In this document: positions 19,859-23,135 of the stretch, piece after piece
Position numbering within the stretch: the stretch's first letter is position 1
Layout of the letters: the number at the start of each line of letters is the position of its first letter
Assembly: GCF_028864635.1 (NCBI RefSeq)
Contig: NZ_CP104850.1
Location: forward strand, 440,001 to 504,000
Source of the DNA: Cloacibacterium sp. TD35
GTDB taxonomy: Bacteria; Bacteroidota; Bacteroidia; Flavobacteriales; Weeksellaceae
DNA length: 64,000 nt
Direction of reading: 5' to 3'
Position numbers and translations under genes: made by a program
The notes under the pieces: generated by a model
Seen by the model: only the letters and a program-made list of their open reading frames with translations
Told to the model about the DNA's origin: nothing
The model's database searches: none

Positions 19859-22369
19859 TTATTTCTTCTTCGCTGCAGGTTTTTTCTTTTCTGCAAAAGC
19901 TGTTTTATCTTGGTCAGTAATCCATTTTTTTACTTCATCCAGAGAAACGGTTTGCAATTCTTCTGCTTCATACTTGCTTCCGTCTTCTTTTTTAGGAATT
20001 TTGAACATTCCTTTGCCAAATTTGATGAAAGGTCCCCATCTTCCGTTTTCAATAGAAATTTTTTCTTTTTCCCATTGCTGAATATAGCGGTTAGCTTCCT
20101 TCTCTAATTTTGCAGAAATGAGCTCTTCTATGTCTCCTTGAGTAAGATTGTCAAAATCATATTTCTTCGGAACATTTACATATAAATCTTTGTATTTTAC
20201 AAATGGCCCAAATCTTCCTGTTCCTTTCGTTACAGGTTCACCTTTATAAGTGGCAATTGGCGCATCTGCTTCTATTTTTTCTTTGATAAAATTTTCTGCA
20301 ACTTCCTGTGTTACCGAGAACGGATCTGTTCCTCTTCCGATAGAAATAAATGCATCTCCCCATTTTACATAAGGCCCGAATCTCCCTACGCCAACAGAAA
20401 CTGGTTTTCCTTGGAATTCATTTAAGTCAAATGGAATTTTAAATAGCTCTAGAGCTTCTTCAAAACTAATGGTATTGATATTTTGAGTAGGTAATAGTGA
20501 AGCGTAAGTTGGTTTCTCTTCATCATCATTTTCACCAATTTGAATCATCGCACCATATCTTCCCATTCTAGCGTAAACATTTTTACCAGATTTAGGATCT
20601 ACACCTAATAATCTCTCGCCAGTAGCTCTGTCTGCATGCTCTTCTACATCTTCAATTTTCGGGTGAAAATTATCATAAAAATGCTTTAGGGTTTCTTTCC
20701 ATTTTTCTGAACCATTGGCAATATCGTCAAAATCTTGTTCAACTTTTGCAGTAAAACCATAATCCAAAATTTCATTGAAATTACTGATTAAAAACTCATT
20801 CACTACTTCACCAATGTCCGTAGGAACGAATTTATTTTTATCTCCCCCGAATTTCTCCGTCAAAACTTCTTTTTTCAGACCAGATTTTCCTAGAGAAAGT
20901 TTTACGATTTCTCTTTCATGCGGTAGAATTTCTCTTTTATCTACATATTCTCTATTCTGAATCGTCTGAATCGTTGGTGCATAAGTAGAAGGTCTACCAA
21001 TTCCCAGTTCTTCTAATTTTCTTACTAAAGCAGCTTCGGTATATCTTGCTGCTGGTTTAGTGAATTTTTCGGTAGCCGTAATTTTTTTGAAATGTAAAAC
21101 CTCGCCCACCTTTACTTTTGGCAACAGTTTTTCGTTGTTTTCCTCATCATCTTCTTCTGTTTTCGAAATTCCATAGACTTTTAAGAAACCATCGAAAACA
21201 ATCACTTCACCTTGTGCTTCAAAATGACTTGGCAAAGCAGAATTCCCGATTTCAATTACGGTTTTTTCAATTTTTGCATTAGCCATCTGAGAAGCTAGAG
21301 TTCTCTTATAAATGAGTTGATATAATTTATTGAGTTGTGCATCACCAATGGTTTTCACTCCAAAATCAGTCGGACGAATTGCCTCGTGTGCTTCTTGAGC
21401 AGATGAAGATTTCGTAGTATAATTTATTGGCGATGAATATTCTGCCCCAAATTCTTTTTCGATGAAATCTTTAGCAGCACTAATTGCATCTTGAGAAAGA
21501 TTTACTGAGTCTGTTCTCATATAAGTAATGTACCCTTCTTCGTAGAGACGCTGTGCAATTCTCATGGTAGAAGTTACATTATACCCTAATCTATTAGAAG
21601 CTTCTTGCTGTAATGTAGAAGTAGTAAAAGGTGCAGAAGCAGAACGCGTTCCTGGCTTTTTTTCTACATTTAAAACTTTGAATTCAGTATTCTGAGATTT
21701 TTCTAAAAATGCTTCCGATTCTTTTTCTTGAGCAAAATCTTTTTTCAGTCTTGCGGCAATTTCTTGCTTTTCGGCATTTAAGAAAGTTCCTTCCACTTTA
21801 TAAGTAGAAGTCGGTTTGAAATTTCTAATTTCTTGCTCTCTTTCTACTACCAATCTTACTGCAACAGATTGTACTCTTCCCGCCGAAAGTCCGGTTTTCA
21901 CTTTTTTCCAAAGTACGGGCGACATTTCAAAACCTACAATTCTGTCGAGAACCCTTCTTGCTTGTTGAGCATTTACGAGATTCTGGTCAATTTTTCTAGG
22001 GTTTTCAATCGCTTTCAGTATTGCATTTTTGGTAATTTCGTGGAAAACAATACGCTTGGTATTTTCTTCTTTGAGTTTTAATTCTTGTGCTAAATGCCAA
22101 GCAATAGCTTCTCCTTCACGGTCTTCATCGGAAGCTAACCAAACGATTTCTGCTTTTTTCACCGCTGCTTTCAGTTCAGTTACTAATTTCTTTTTATCAG
22201 CAGAAACTTCGTAATCTGGCGTGAAGGTTTTAAGGTCTATTCCCATTCCTTTTTTGGGTAAATCTCGGATATGACCGAAGCTAGATTTCACTTCGAAATC
22301 CTTTCCAAGATACTTCTGAATGGTCTTCGCTTTTGCTGGTGACTCTACGATGACTAGATTTTTTGACAT
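19859..22369 (-). CDS. topA: DNA topoisomerase I
   Basis: A type IA topoisomerase of 836 residues that relaxes negative supercoils. Seen are the Toprim motif (LVIVESPAKAKT, residues 5-16; DEDREGEAIAWHL at 81-93), the catalytic Tyr283 in ITYMRTDS, and HEAIRPT. The C-terminus has repeated TOPRIM-C modules (GRFGPYVKWGD, GRFGPFVKYKD, GRWGPFIKFGK) in place of zinc fingers, and a Lys-rich tail. The ATG at 22369 gives the conserved MSKNLVIVES start. It has a -7 box, TACTTTTG, at 22384-22391. Confidence 0.97.
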   Translation of the reverse strand: MSKNLVIVESPAKAKTIQKYLGKDFEVKSSFGHIRDLPKKGMGIDLKTFTPDYEVSADKKKLVTELKAAVKKAEIVWLASDEDREGEAIAWHLAQELKLKEENTKRIVFHEITKNAILKAIENPRKIDQNLVNAQQARRVLDRIVGFEMSPVLWKKVKTGLSAGRVQSVAVRLVVEREQEIRNFKPTSTYKVEGTFLNAEKQEIAARLKKDFAQEKESEAFLEKSQNTEFKVLNVEKKPGTRSASAPFTTSTLQQEASNRLGYNVTSTMRIAQRLYEEGYITYMRTDSVNLSQDAISAAKDFIEKEFGAEYSSPINYTTKSSSAQEAHEAIRPTDFGVKTIGDAQLNKLYQLIYKRTLASQMANAKIEKTVIEIGNSALPSHFEAQGEVIVFDGFLKVYGISKTEEDDEENNEKLLPKVKVGEVLHFKKITATEKFTKPAARYTEAALVRKLEELGIGRPSTYAPTIQTIQNREYVDKREILPHEREIVKLSLGKSGLKKEVLTEKFGGDKNKFVPTDIGEVVNEFLISNFNEILDYGFTAKVEQDFDDIANGSEKWKETLKHFYDNFHPKIEDVEEHADRATGERLLGVDPKSGKNVYARMGRYGAMIQIGENDDEEKPTYASLLPTQNINTISFEEALELFKIPFDLNEFQGKPVSVGVGRFGPYVKWGDAFISIGRGTDPFSVTQEVAENFIKEKIEADAPIATYKGEPVTKGTGRFGPFVKYKDLYVNVPKKYDFDNLTQGDIEELISAKLEKEANRYIQQWEKEKISIENGRWGPFIKFGKGMFKIPKKEDGSKYEAEELQTVSLDEVKKWITDQDKTAFAEKKKPAAKKK

Positions 22370-22383
22370 GCACAAAATTTTTG

Positions 22384-22391
22384 CAAAAGTA
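22384..22391 (-). promoter_or_regulatory. topA -7 box
   Basis: TACTTTTG on the minus strand, 14 nt before the topA ATG. Confidence 0.6.
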
Positions 22392-22517
22392 GAAACTTTT
22401 TTTTAAACAATCGTTTTTAGCAATTTTCTTACGGTTTTCTTTTCTTCAAATAAAGTATTTTATCTTCGTTTCATTCATTTTTTCTATAATAAGAAGTTGG
22501 TTTTTCTTGGCATTTAA

Positions 22518-22549
22518 TTTGATGAAATTCTGCCAATGATTTATTTTTG
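22518..22549 (+). promoter_or_regulatory. Promoter of the Cys-leader / DUF4395 unit
   Basis: -33 TTTG (22518-22521), 20-nt spacer, -7 box TATTTTTG (22542-22549). The leader-peptide ATG begins only 12 nt later, so the peptide is at the very start of the transcript. Confidence 0.75.
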
Positions 22550-22561
22550 CACTATCAAAAT

Positions 22562-22660
22562 ATGAAAACCACATTATCTACTTTTACAAAAATTCAAAAA
22601 ATGAATTGCTGTTGTTCTTTTAAAACAAAAGAGGACGGGTTAGATGATGTAACGTTTTAA
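22562..22660 (+). CDS. Putative cysteine-rich leader peptide (32 residues)
   Basis: A small ORF at the start of the DUF4395 transcript. It has 32 codons; residues 14-19 are MNCCCS, three consecutive Cys codons (TGC TGT TGT), followed by an acidic end (KEDGLDDVTF). The stop lies 26 nt before an intrinsic terminator. The codons for Glu-Asp (GAGGAC, 22631-22636) are identical to the 3' arm of that terminator and complementary to its 5' arm, so they could form an antiterminator. This is how amino-acid attenuators are built; here the sensed amino acid would be cysteine. Expression is not shown. Confidence 0.65.
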   Translation: MKTTLSTFTKIQKMNCCCSFKTKEDGLDDVTF

Positions 22661-22686
22661 AATACAAATGTCTCCATATATCACTG

Positions 22687-22712
22687 AGTCCTCGAAATGA
22701 GGACTTTTTTTT
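22687..22712 (+). terminator. Intrinsic terminator within the DUF4395 leader
   Basis: AGTCCTC (22687-22693), 5-nt loop, GAGGACT (22699-22705), then an uninterrupted T-run to 22712. It lies upstream of the DUF4395 ATG (22737) and downstream of the leader peptide, where an attenuator belongs. It is on the plus strand, so topA cannot use it. Confidence 0.9.
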
Positions 22713-22736
22713 ATTTAATCATTTAAAATTTTATTC

Positions 22737-23135
22737 ATGCCAACAGAAAACAAAATCAGAATAACCGCATTTTTAGTATTTATCTTAACCTTTTTATACA
22801 TCACAACTCATTTCATTTGGATTCCTATTTTTCTATTGATAGATTTTGCTTTGAGAGGTTCTGGATACGGAAAATGGAGCGTTTTAGGGTTTTTAGCAGA
22901 AAAAATAGTTTCGATTTTTAATTTTGAACAAAAACCCATTTATTTTCCACCGAAACAATTTGCAGCACAAGTAGGTTTTATTTTTTCATTGACCTTGTTG
23001 GTTTTTAATCTTCTCGAAATCAACAGTCTTATTGTAAGCGGAATTTTGCTGATTTGCGCAGGTCTAGAGGCATTTTTCAATTTCTGTGTAGGATGTTATG
23101 TGTACAATGCTTATTATCACATCAAAAATAAATAG
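22737..23135 (+). CDS. DUF4395 membrane protein
   Basis: A 132-residue protein with about four TM helices (ITAFLVFILTFLYI, IWIPIFLLIDFAL, VGFIFSLTLLVF, LIVSGILLICAGLEAFF) and a conserved Cys pair FCVGCYVY near the C-terminus. The DUF4395 family has no settled function; members are often encoded near thioredoxin or rhodanese-like genes, which suggests a redox or sulfur role. The cysteine-codon leader just upstream fits that idea. Single gene, followed by DUF2062 with its own promoter. Confidence 0.85.
   Translation: MPTENKIRITAFLVFILTFLYITTHFIWIPIFLLIDFALRGSGYGKWSVLGFLAEKIVSIFNFEQKPIYFPPKQFAAQVGFIFSLTLLVFNLLEINSLIVSGILLICAGLEAFFNFCVGCYVYNAYYHIKNK

Follow-up and report, generated by a model that had tools for sequence, protein, structure and literature searches.

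The DUF4395 membrane protein gene of Cloacibacterium sp. TD35 is probably preceded by a transcription attenuator in which a translating ribosome senses charged tRNA-Cys. The case for this reading is comparative and, more weakly, comes from computed folding: an RNA element is kept although its reading frame has shifted, competing folds can form, shuffled sequences serve as controls, and other cysteine-codon leaders are found before DUF4395 in other bacteria. The initial annotation of the window (the whole 64,000-nucleotide stretch of DNA that was analysed) had proposed cysteine-dependent attenuation at this place. The elements that it described are present at their coordinates, and the mechanism that it put forward is probably right, though incomplete.

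The Cloacibacterium leader and its conservation

The host genome is a single contig of 2.6 Mb. The features of the locus are the following:

22518–22549, forward strand: promoter read from the sequence, TTTG (22518–22521), a spacer of 20 nt and TATTTTTG (22542–22549)
22562–22660, forward strand: leader ORF read from the first ATG, 32 aa, MKTTLSTFTKIQKMNCCCSFKTKEDGLDDVTF, stop codon at 22658–22660
22601–22660, forward strand: leader ORF from the second ATG, MNCCCSFKTKEDGLDDVTF, the likelier coding unit, with MNCCC[SP]FK intact in four genomes
22607–22615, forward strand: putative control codons TGC TGT TGT (Cys-Cys-Cys), with identical letters in four genomes
22614–22621, forward strand: segment 1, predicted 5' arm of the protector, GUUCUUUU, which begins in the third Cys codon and forms 8 bp with 22629–22636
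22629–22636, forward strand: segment 2, AAGAGGAC, predicted 3' arm of the protector, whose GAGGAC provides the antiterminator with its 5' arm; AAAAGAGGAC is invariant in four genomes
22631–22693, forward strand: predicted antiterminator, GAGGAC (22631–22636) with GTCCTC (22688–22693), TTAG (22640–22643) with CTGA (22684–22687), plus an inner stem
22686–22712, forward strand: intrinsic terminator (segments 3 and 4), hairpin 22686–22706 (−11.1 kcal/mol) and T-run 22705–22712
22737–23135, forward strand: candidate regulated gene, a DUF4395 membrane protein of 132 aa with a C-terminal CVGC (PF14340, E 1.1e-27, 97.4 bits)

The promoter fits the Bacteroidota form, TTTG/TAnnTTTG, and the first ATG, at 22562, is 12 nt downstream of the −7 box. 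A promoter, a 32-codon leader ORF starting 12 nt further on with three Cys codons, and a terminator ahead of the DUF4395 ATG were all described in the initial annotation, and all are there. The same holds for two further observations, that GAGGAC at 22631–22636 is the same as the 3' arm of the terminator (22699–22704, facing GTCCTC at 22688–22693) and that it begins 15 nt past the last Cys codon. A search of 22300–22800 against Rfam 15 yields two hits with E up to 1, which score well under the gathering threshold, and there is no tRNA-Cys within the 64-kb window.

Seven Cloacibacterium genomes were searched with the region 22500–22745. The whole leader region is found in four of them, TD35 itself, G056 (97%), G080 (88%) and G070 (86%), and is absent from G039, G010 and G089. 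DUF4395 is 95% identical in Cloacibacterium normanense (L001), while G010 and G089 contain distant DUF4395 proteins only. The close homologue of G039 (L008) is located behind a gene which by eye resembles a TonB receptor gene, and has no leader, unlike its four close relatives. The nearest outgroup gene, from another genus (L010), has no leader either; the divergent neighbour that, by eye, it has in common with the Cloacibacterium locus is presumably a topoisomerase I gene. DNA matches of 27–29 nt to the leader elsewhere in the genus (E 9e-5 to 6e-4) are AT-rich stretches before other genes and were rejected as leaders.

The alignment of the four leaders contains three invariant blocks: AAAAAATGAATTGCTGTTGT, around the Cys codons, AAAAGAGGAC and CATATATCACTGAGTCCTCGAAATGAGGAC. 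Positions 22686–22704 of the terminator are invariant as well, TTTG is unchanged in all four, and the second base of the −7 box changes from A to G in G070. Conservation of the Cys run and of the GAGGAC/GTCCTC complementarity in relatives had been set beforehand as a test of the proposal, and the four leaders show no change in either. Between the Cys codons and AAAAGAGGAC lies a 2-nt indel, which makes the reading frame of this block differ by lineage (..FKTKEDGLDDVTF in TD35, ..FKNQKRTD in G080 and G070). Since AAAAGAGGAC is unchanged across the frame shift, it is conserved as RNA and not as protein.

The peptide beyond MNCCC is poorly conserved among the four leaders. In G070, a 1-nt insertion between the two ATGs (an extra A before AAAAAATGAATTGCTGTTGT, within an A-run where a sequencing error is possible) breaks the frame of the first ATG and spares MNCCC read from the second. 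Because only the first frame is broken, the true start of the leader may be the second ATG, at 22601. The initial annotation had also suggested looking for codon-level conservation of the Cys run together with covariation of the stems. The run is kept, but there is no synonymous change at the Cys codons of the four leaders, which are mutually close, and their invariant terminator and antiterminator arms allow no covariation. As the Cys codons have the same letters in all four, selection on codons is inseparable from nucleotide conservation within Cloacibacterium.

The motif TGYTGYTGY occurs at 215 sites in the TD35 genome (134 forward and 81 reverse). Among the matches listed, which comprise 99 other forward sites, some of them overlapping, none is in a free-standing short ORF: the 12 short frames found at these sites are all inside frames of at least 70 codons. 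Within the window, the TGYTGYTGY sites include no second free-standing Cys-Cys-Cys leader.

Proposed mechanism and computed folding

Classical trp and his attenuators form a protector (segments 1:2), an antiterminator (2:3) and a terminator (3:4), with the control codons located by segment 1. In its predicted folds, the Cloacibacterium element shares this layout, and differs by a weak protector and a long antiterminator.

According to the proposed mechanism, RNA polymerase would start near 22555 and a ribosome would translate the leader peptide. When cysteine is ample, the ribosome would clear the three Cys codons, reach the stop codon and cover the 5' side of the antiterminator: its footprint at the stop codon is estimated at about 22640–22672 in TD35, and the earlier stop of G080 and G070 would place it over GAGGAC itself. 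The 22686–22706 hairpin would then form, and transcription would end ahead of DUF4395. When cysteine is short, the ribosome would stall at 22607–22615 and mask segment 1, which would let segment 2 pair with segment 3 ahead of the synthesis of segment 4, a presumed kinetic advantage. The terminator would thus be delayed or prevented and the polymerase would read into DUF4395, which is the direction of the response that we infer.

Folding yields both the antiterminator and the terminator, in agreement with the claim that GTCCTC is able to pair with either GAGGAC. The fold scheme of the initial annotation contained these competing hairpins but lacked the protector helix and the extension of the antiterminator. 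The protector helix (22614–22621:22629–22636) has 8 bp in TD35, with two GU pairs in TD35 and G056, and its energy is −4.4 kcal/mol in these two leaders, −6.3 in G080 and −6.9 in G070. In G070 it is formed by GUCCUUUU (8 bp), where the pair 22616–22634 is C-G versus U-G in TD35, and in G080 by GUCCCUUU (8 bp with a bulge); the 2-nt indel falls in its loop. The antiterminator runs beyond GAGGAC via UUAG/CUGA and the inner stem, and reaches −18.6 kcal/mol in TD35 and G056 and −11.0 in G080 and G070, the terminator being at −11.1.

When a ribosome occupies one of the three Cys codons, whichever it is, the minimum-energy fold of the TD35 and G056 leaders is the antiterminator, even when the terminator sequence is included; in G080 and G070 this is the case only before segment 4 is made. 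Without a stalled ribosome, the lowest-energy fold of TD35 combines the protector and the terminator. The computed probability of the terminator helix in the presence of a stalled ribosome is 0.65–0.71 in TD35, 0.64–0.71 in G056, 0.99 in G080 and 0.97 in G070, compared to 0.997–0.9996 without stalling. The proposal that a ribosome at the Cys codons frees GAGGAC for the antiterminator therefore agrees with the lowest-energy folds of TD35 and G056, but the terminator is the more probable structure at equilibrium in each of the four leaders. Since the terminator prevails at equilibrium despite the stall, the switch would have to be kinetic.

The spacer of each of the four leaders was compared to 1000 dinucleotide shuffles. 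The amplitude of the switch is matched by 11, 9, 40 and 18 shuffles out of 1000 in TD35, G056, G080 and G070, respectively, and it is tiny in G080 (0.006) and G070 (0.026). The sequestration of segment 3 was computed with the ribosome at the Cys codons and segment 4 still absent; 8, 3, 4 and 4 of 1000 shuffles reach it, in the same order. In G080 and G070, this sequestration is 0.998 with the stall and about 0.49 in its absence, and a difference of about 0.5 is matched by 22 and 19 of 1000 shuffles. In TD35 and G056, before segment 4, the antiterminator reaches 0.946 and 0.996 without a stall versus 0.998 and 0.999 with it; 342 and 538 of 1000 shuffles reach the same stalled-minus-free difference. 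The protector alone does not prevent the antiterminator in these two leaders, so that a ribosome positioned at the stop codon would have to account for their off state. As a model, folding lends partial support to the attenuator reading.

One could suppose instead a plain terminator or roadblock with constant readthrough, the ORF being incidental and the common GAGGAC arising by chance in a short AT-rich spacer. Indeed, TGYTGYTGY is not rare in this genome (215 sites), the peptide is poorly conserved beyond MNCCC, and the hairpin is a plain terminator which wins at equilibrium. However, a terminator between a promoter and its own gene makes little sense without control, the antiterminator potential is above that of nearly all shuffles in four genomes, and GAGGAC is preserved despite the change of frame. 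The lack of a free Cys-Cys-Cys leader at the 99 other listed sites and the presence of other Cys-codon leaders before DUF4395 elsewhere also speak against constant readthrough, which we regard as unlikely. Attenuation by charged tRNA-Cys accounts better for these features.

Cysteine-codon leaders at other DUF4395 loci

A second type of leader is found in another genus of the same family, designated g9. DUF4395 is present in 20 of its 23 genomes, and a different Cys leader followed by a terminator precedes the gene in all 20. The peptide has 14–15 aa, with the consensus M..IFS[HQ]I.MC[NKH].[KN]-stop (exceptions: L017, L023 and L031), and its Cys is always fourth from the end. The Cys codon is TGT in 19 cases and TGC in 2, including one more leader in G105. 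An in-frame codon indel that distinguishes L015 from L020 fits translation of this leader.

In most g9 leaders, segment 1 occupies codons 3–7 and forms up to 12 bp with sequence located past the stop codon, and the 5' arm of the terminator is an alternative partner of segment 2, the helices being mutually exclusive. The protector is paired without interruption over 5 bp at the least (L028, L030) and 12 bp at the most. The helix exists as two sub-types, TTCTCTC/GAGAGAA and TTCTCAC/GTGAGAA, and the T-A to A-T replacement between them is its sole compensatory change. RNAalifold applied to the 20 leaders recovers the terminator alone, MAFFT misplacing the TTCTCAC/GTGAGAA variant. The set was therefore split into 13 main-type and 4 variant leaders, L017 being omitted, as well as L021 and L026, which are identical to L016. 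The protector of the 13 main-type leaders is paired in 93.0% of cells with no two-sided change, and covariation gives no support in this type: the score obtained for the entire structure is attained with shuffled letters 203 times out of 500. Sliding the arms of the 13 leaders decreases the proportion of paired cells from 90.8% to 38–61%.

A fold control was run on 11 of the 20 g9 leaders. The stalled-minus-free difference is 0.47–0.67 in nine of them, where it is matched by 0–42 of 300 shuffles, and near zero in L017 and L020, which have no computed switch. The antiterminator taken alone is not above shuffles in most leaders tested (matched by 5 to 210 of 300).

A covariance model built from the 13 leaders has matches in 18 of 296 genomes of the family, once in each: 17 are before DUF4395 and one, in G105, before a NIL-domain gene. 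The model missed 3 of the 20 g9 leaders (G008, G054 and G100). In G105 (L085), DUF4395 was not found; the leader and terminator persist, directly before the NIL gene. A NIL-domain gene follows DUF4395 in the three g9 loci that were read (L011, L021 and L022, the domain being tested in L022), and in G008 a NIL gene follows it by coordinates.

A conserved palindrome, TTTAATTCATACTTATTTGGTGGGAATTAAAT, occurs near the promoter of the g9 leader, for example just upstream of it in L021, and is possibly a transcription-factor site. A search of seven genomes allowing up to three mismatches finds one copy before DUF4395 in each of five g9 genomes, and no copy at this gene in the two Cloacibacterium genomes. 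A variant copy precedes a PLP-enzyme-like gene (L042) and three further matches are inside genes. Palindrome-like stretches are seen by eye before DUF4395 in L137 and L142.

At the level of the class, DUF4395 is present in 36 of 395 genomes. Twenty-eight loci were scanned for runs or close pairs of Cys or Met-Cys codons, a search which may miss single-Cys leaders; L117 and L118 are short and poorly placed, and the start is doubtful in L120 and L129. The locus L130 contains, in this order, a third type of leader, MNTTFTHIMSTKPVHYFNNVAKVMCCCHVWMCGNYLCLN (MCCCHVWMCG...), a strong terminator, a tRNA-Cys (GCA), DUF4395 and a NIL gene. In its family, 294 genomes were searched, 50 of which had a match, and among the 30 loci read a Cys-run leader with a terminator is present in L133 (same genome as L130) and L134. 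This arrangement is found in two genomes of different species, G688 and G1112 (L134; NIL tested), each of which has a second tRNA-Cys elsewhere. The terminator of the L133 and L134 leader is at about −22 kcal/mol versus −10 to −13 for the antiterminator, so that folding supports a switch poorly in this third leader. In both loci the Cys-rich leader and terminator lie directly before the tRNA-Cys gene, where they may exert a codon-level feedback on it.

A tRNA-Cys is also located directly before DUF4395 in L138 and L141 and, by coordinates, upstream of it on the same strand in G1226 (L169) and G1269 (L173). In these four cases, the 300 nt before the tRNA contain no Cys-codon run in a convincing leader. 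Seven genomes were chosen for their close DUF4395 homologues; in six of them (G688, G1112, G1184, G1225, G1226 and G1269, the exception being G1021) a tRNA-Cys precedes the gene on its strand, at a distance of about 1.2 kb or less. A MetN-type ABC ATPase carrying a NIL domain comes after DUF4395 in L135, L137 and L139; in L143 its place is taken by an ABC ATPase and a separate NIL frame. In L013, it overlaps a metN-like gene (446 bits to TIGR02314, below the cut-off of 499.7). Rfam gives nothing at the gathering score in eight related loci.

L119 contains a frame of 18 aa, MKQIILAIIVLAVTLPCC, which ends in Pro-Cys-Cys-stop and extends from about 234 to 177 nt before the start of a longer-type DUF4395; a GC-rich hairpin and a T-run lie within about 15 nt of it. 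It is a possible fourth leader, ambiguous and seen in one genome. The Cys-bearing frames of L107, L115, L142, L158 and L160 were inspected and not taken as leaders.

The three types of leader also bear on whether the peptide could be functional itself, either as a small Cys-rich product with a metal-binding or redox role, or as a nascent regulatory peptide which senses something other than the charging of tRNA-Cys. Three successive Cys may bind a metal, and the residues I, F, S, M and C of the g9 leader, which are largely kept, are also compatible with an arrest peptide. RNA pairing nevertheless accounts for part of this residue conservation, since segment 1 of g9 lies within codons. The C-terminal half of the Cloacibacterium peptide is in frames that differ by lineage, which argues against a folded product, and by eye the three types share little save their Cys codons, often after Met, and their position. 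A functional peptide is therefore improbable. Sensing of methionine, or of both sulfur amino acids, in place of cysteine is less probable still: all 21 g9-type leaders have a Met codon immediately before their only Cys codon and related DUF4395 genes adjoin MetN-type transporter genes, but the Cloacibacterium leader has three Cys codons for one or two Met, one being the start, the third leader reads MCCCHVWMC, and tRNA-Cys adjoins DUF4395 in loci scanned.

Origin of the leaders, known systems and meaning

A tree was made of 51 DUF4395 proteins, 6 of 57 having been dropped beforehand as longer or divergent. It places L010 and others together with the Cloacibacterium genes, and the g9 genes are in another clade with those linked to tRNA-Cys, MetN or NIL (99/96). 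Because the Cloacibacterium gene belongs to a different subfamily from the third-leader pair, Cys-codon leaders probably arose more than once. The simplest reading is that the leaders of Cloacibacterium and g9 originated independently, even if losses are possible, and the g9 and third leaders, found in one clade, could share an origin.

The C-terminal Cys pair of DUF4395 (CxxC, mostly CxGC), which the initial annotation had called conserved, is invariant in 37 aligned proteins and might have a role in membrane-located redox or metal chemistry. Since homologues elsewhere adjoin tRNA-Cys, NIL-domain and MetN-type genes, DUF4395 probably serves the handling of cysteine or of sulfur compounds, by analogy with a related subfamily in other Bacteroidota. 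A NIL-domain gene was not found in the five Cloacibacterium genomes searched, nor a tRNA-Cys in the window, so the link with sulfur is indirect there. Tentatively, these observations may be combined as follows: attenuation sensing tRNA-Cys would have been placed before DUF4395 at least two and probably three separate times in Bacteroidota, DUF4395 would take part in the uptake of cysteine or sulfur compounds at the membrane with MetN/NIL-type transport, and in G688 and G1112 a shortage of charged tRNA-Cys would raise tRNA-Cys itself.

Canestrari (2020) reportedly described polycysteine leaderless short ORFs in mycobacteria. According to the available parts of two other sources, the speed of the ribosome on the Cys codons of such ORFs tracks the cysteine supply (PMC13236596, PMC9031893). 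They resemble the present leader by their Cys-codon runs in a short upstream ORF, but they are described as attenuating translation, whereas here the terminator and antiterminator would act on transcription (PMC13236596, PMC9031893). The element uORFC-8-2, located before cysS in Rhodobacterales, is a predicted case of ribosome-mediated attenuation (PMC8632094). As it is described in the accessible text, it is similar to the Cloacibacterium leader in having a short ORF with tandem Cys codons in a stem, then an intrinsic terminator; it differs in that it precedes a cysteinyl-tRNA synthetase gene in Alphaproteobacteria and not DUF4395 (PMC8632094). Cys leader peptides are also found before cys operons in Mycobacterium and Propionibacterium and before cbs in Bifidobacterium; the accessible part of that report mentions that no terminators were found, whereas a terminator is present in every leader described here (PMC1262725).

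In the same phylum, leader peptides are located upstream of amino-acid biosynthesis operons in Flavobacterium psychrophilum, in a paper whose available text names no cysteine leader and does not contain DUF4395 (PMC9723704), and possible leader peptides are mentioned for Bacteroides thetaiotaomicron in the accessible part of another (PMC7366714). Among the matches listed in the literature searched, mostly papers available without subscription, no title or abstract shows a Cys leader before DUF4395 or tRNA-Cys, and DUF4395 is not in the title or abstract of any paper found to contain the word. Cysteine attenuators are known as a kind; what is new, as far as searched, is their recurrence and their presence at this gene and in this phylum.

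If the attenuator reading is true, DUF4395, an uncharacterised membrane family, gains a testable signal, the shortage of cysteine, and its set of neighbours (tRNA-Cys, NIL and MetN-type genes) points it toward sulfur amino acids. Cysteine attenuators, described so far in Actinobacteria and Rhodobacterales in the accessible sources, would then extend to Bacteroidota. The recurrence of dissimilar Cys-codon leaders before one gene family would provide a natural experiment on the origin of attenuators.
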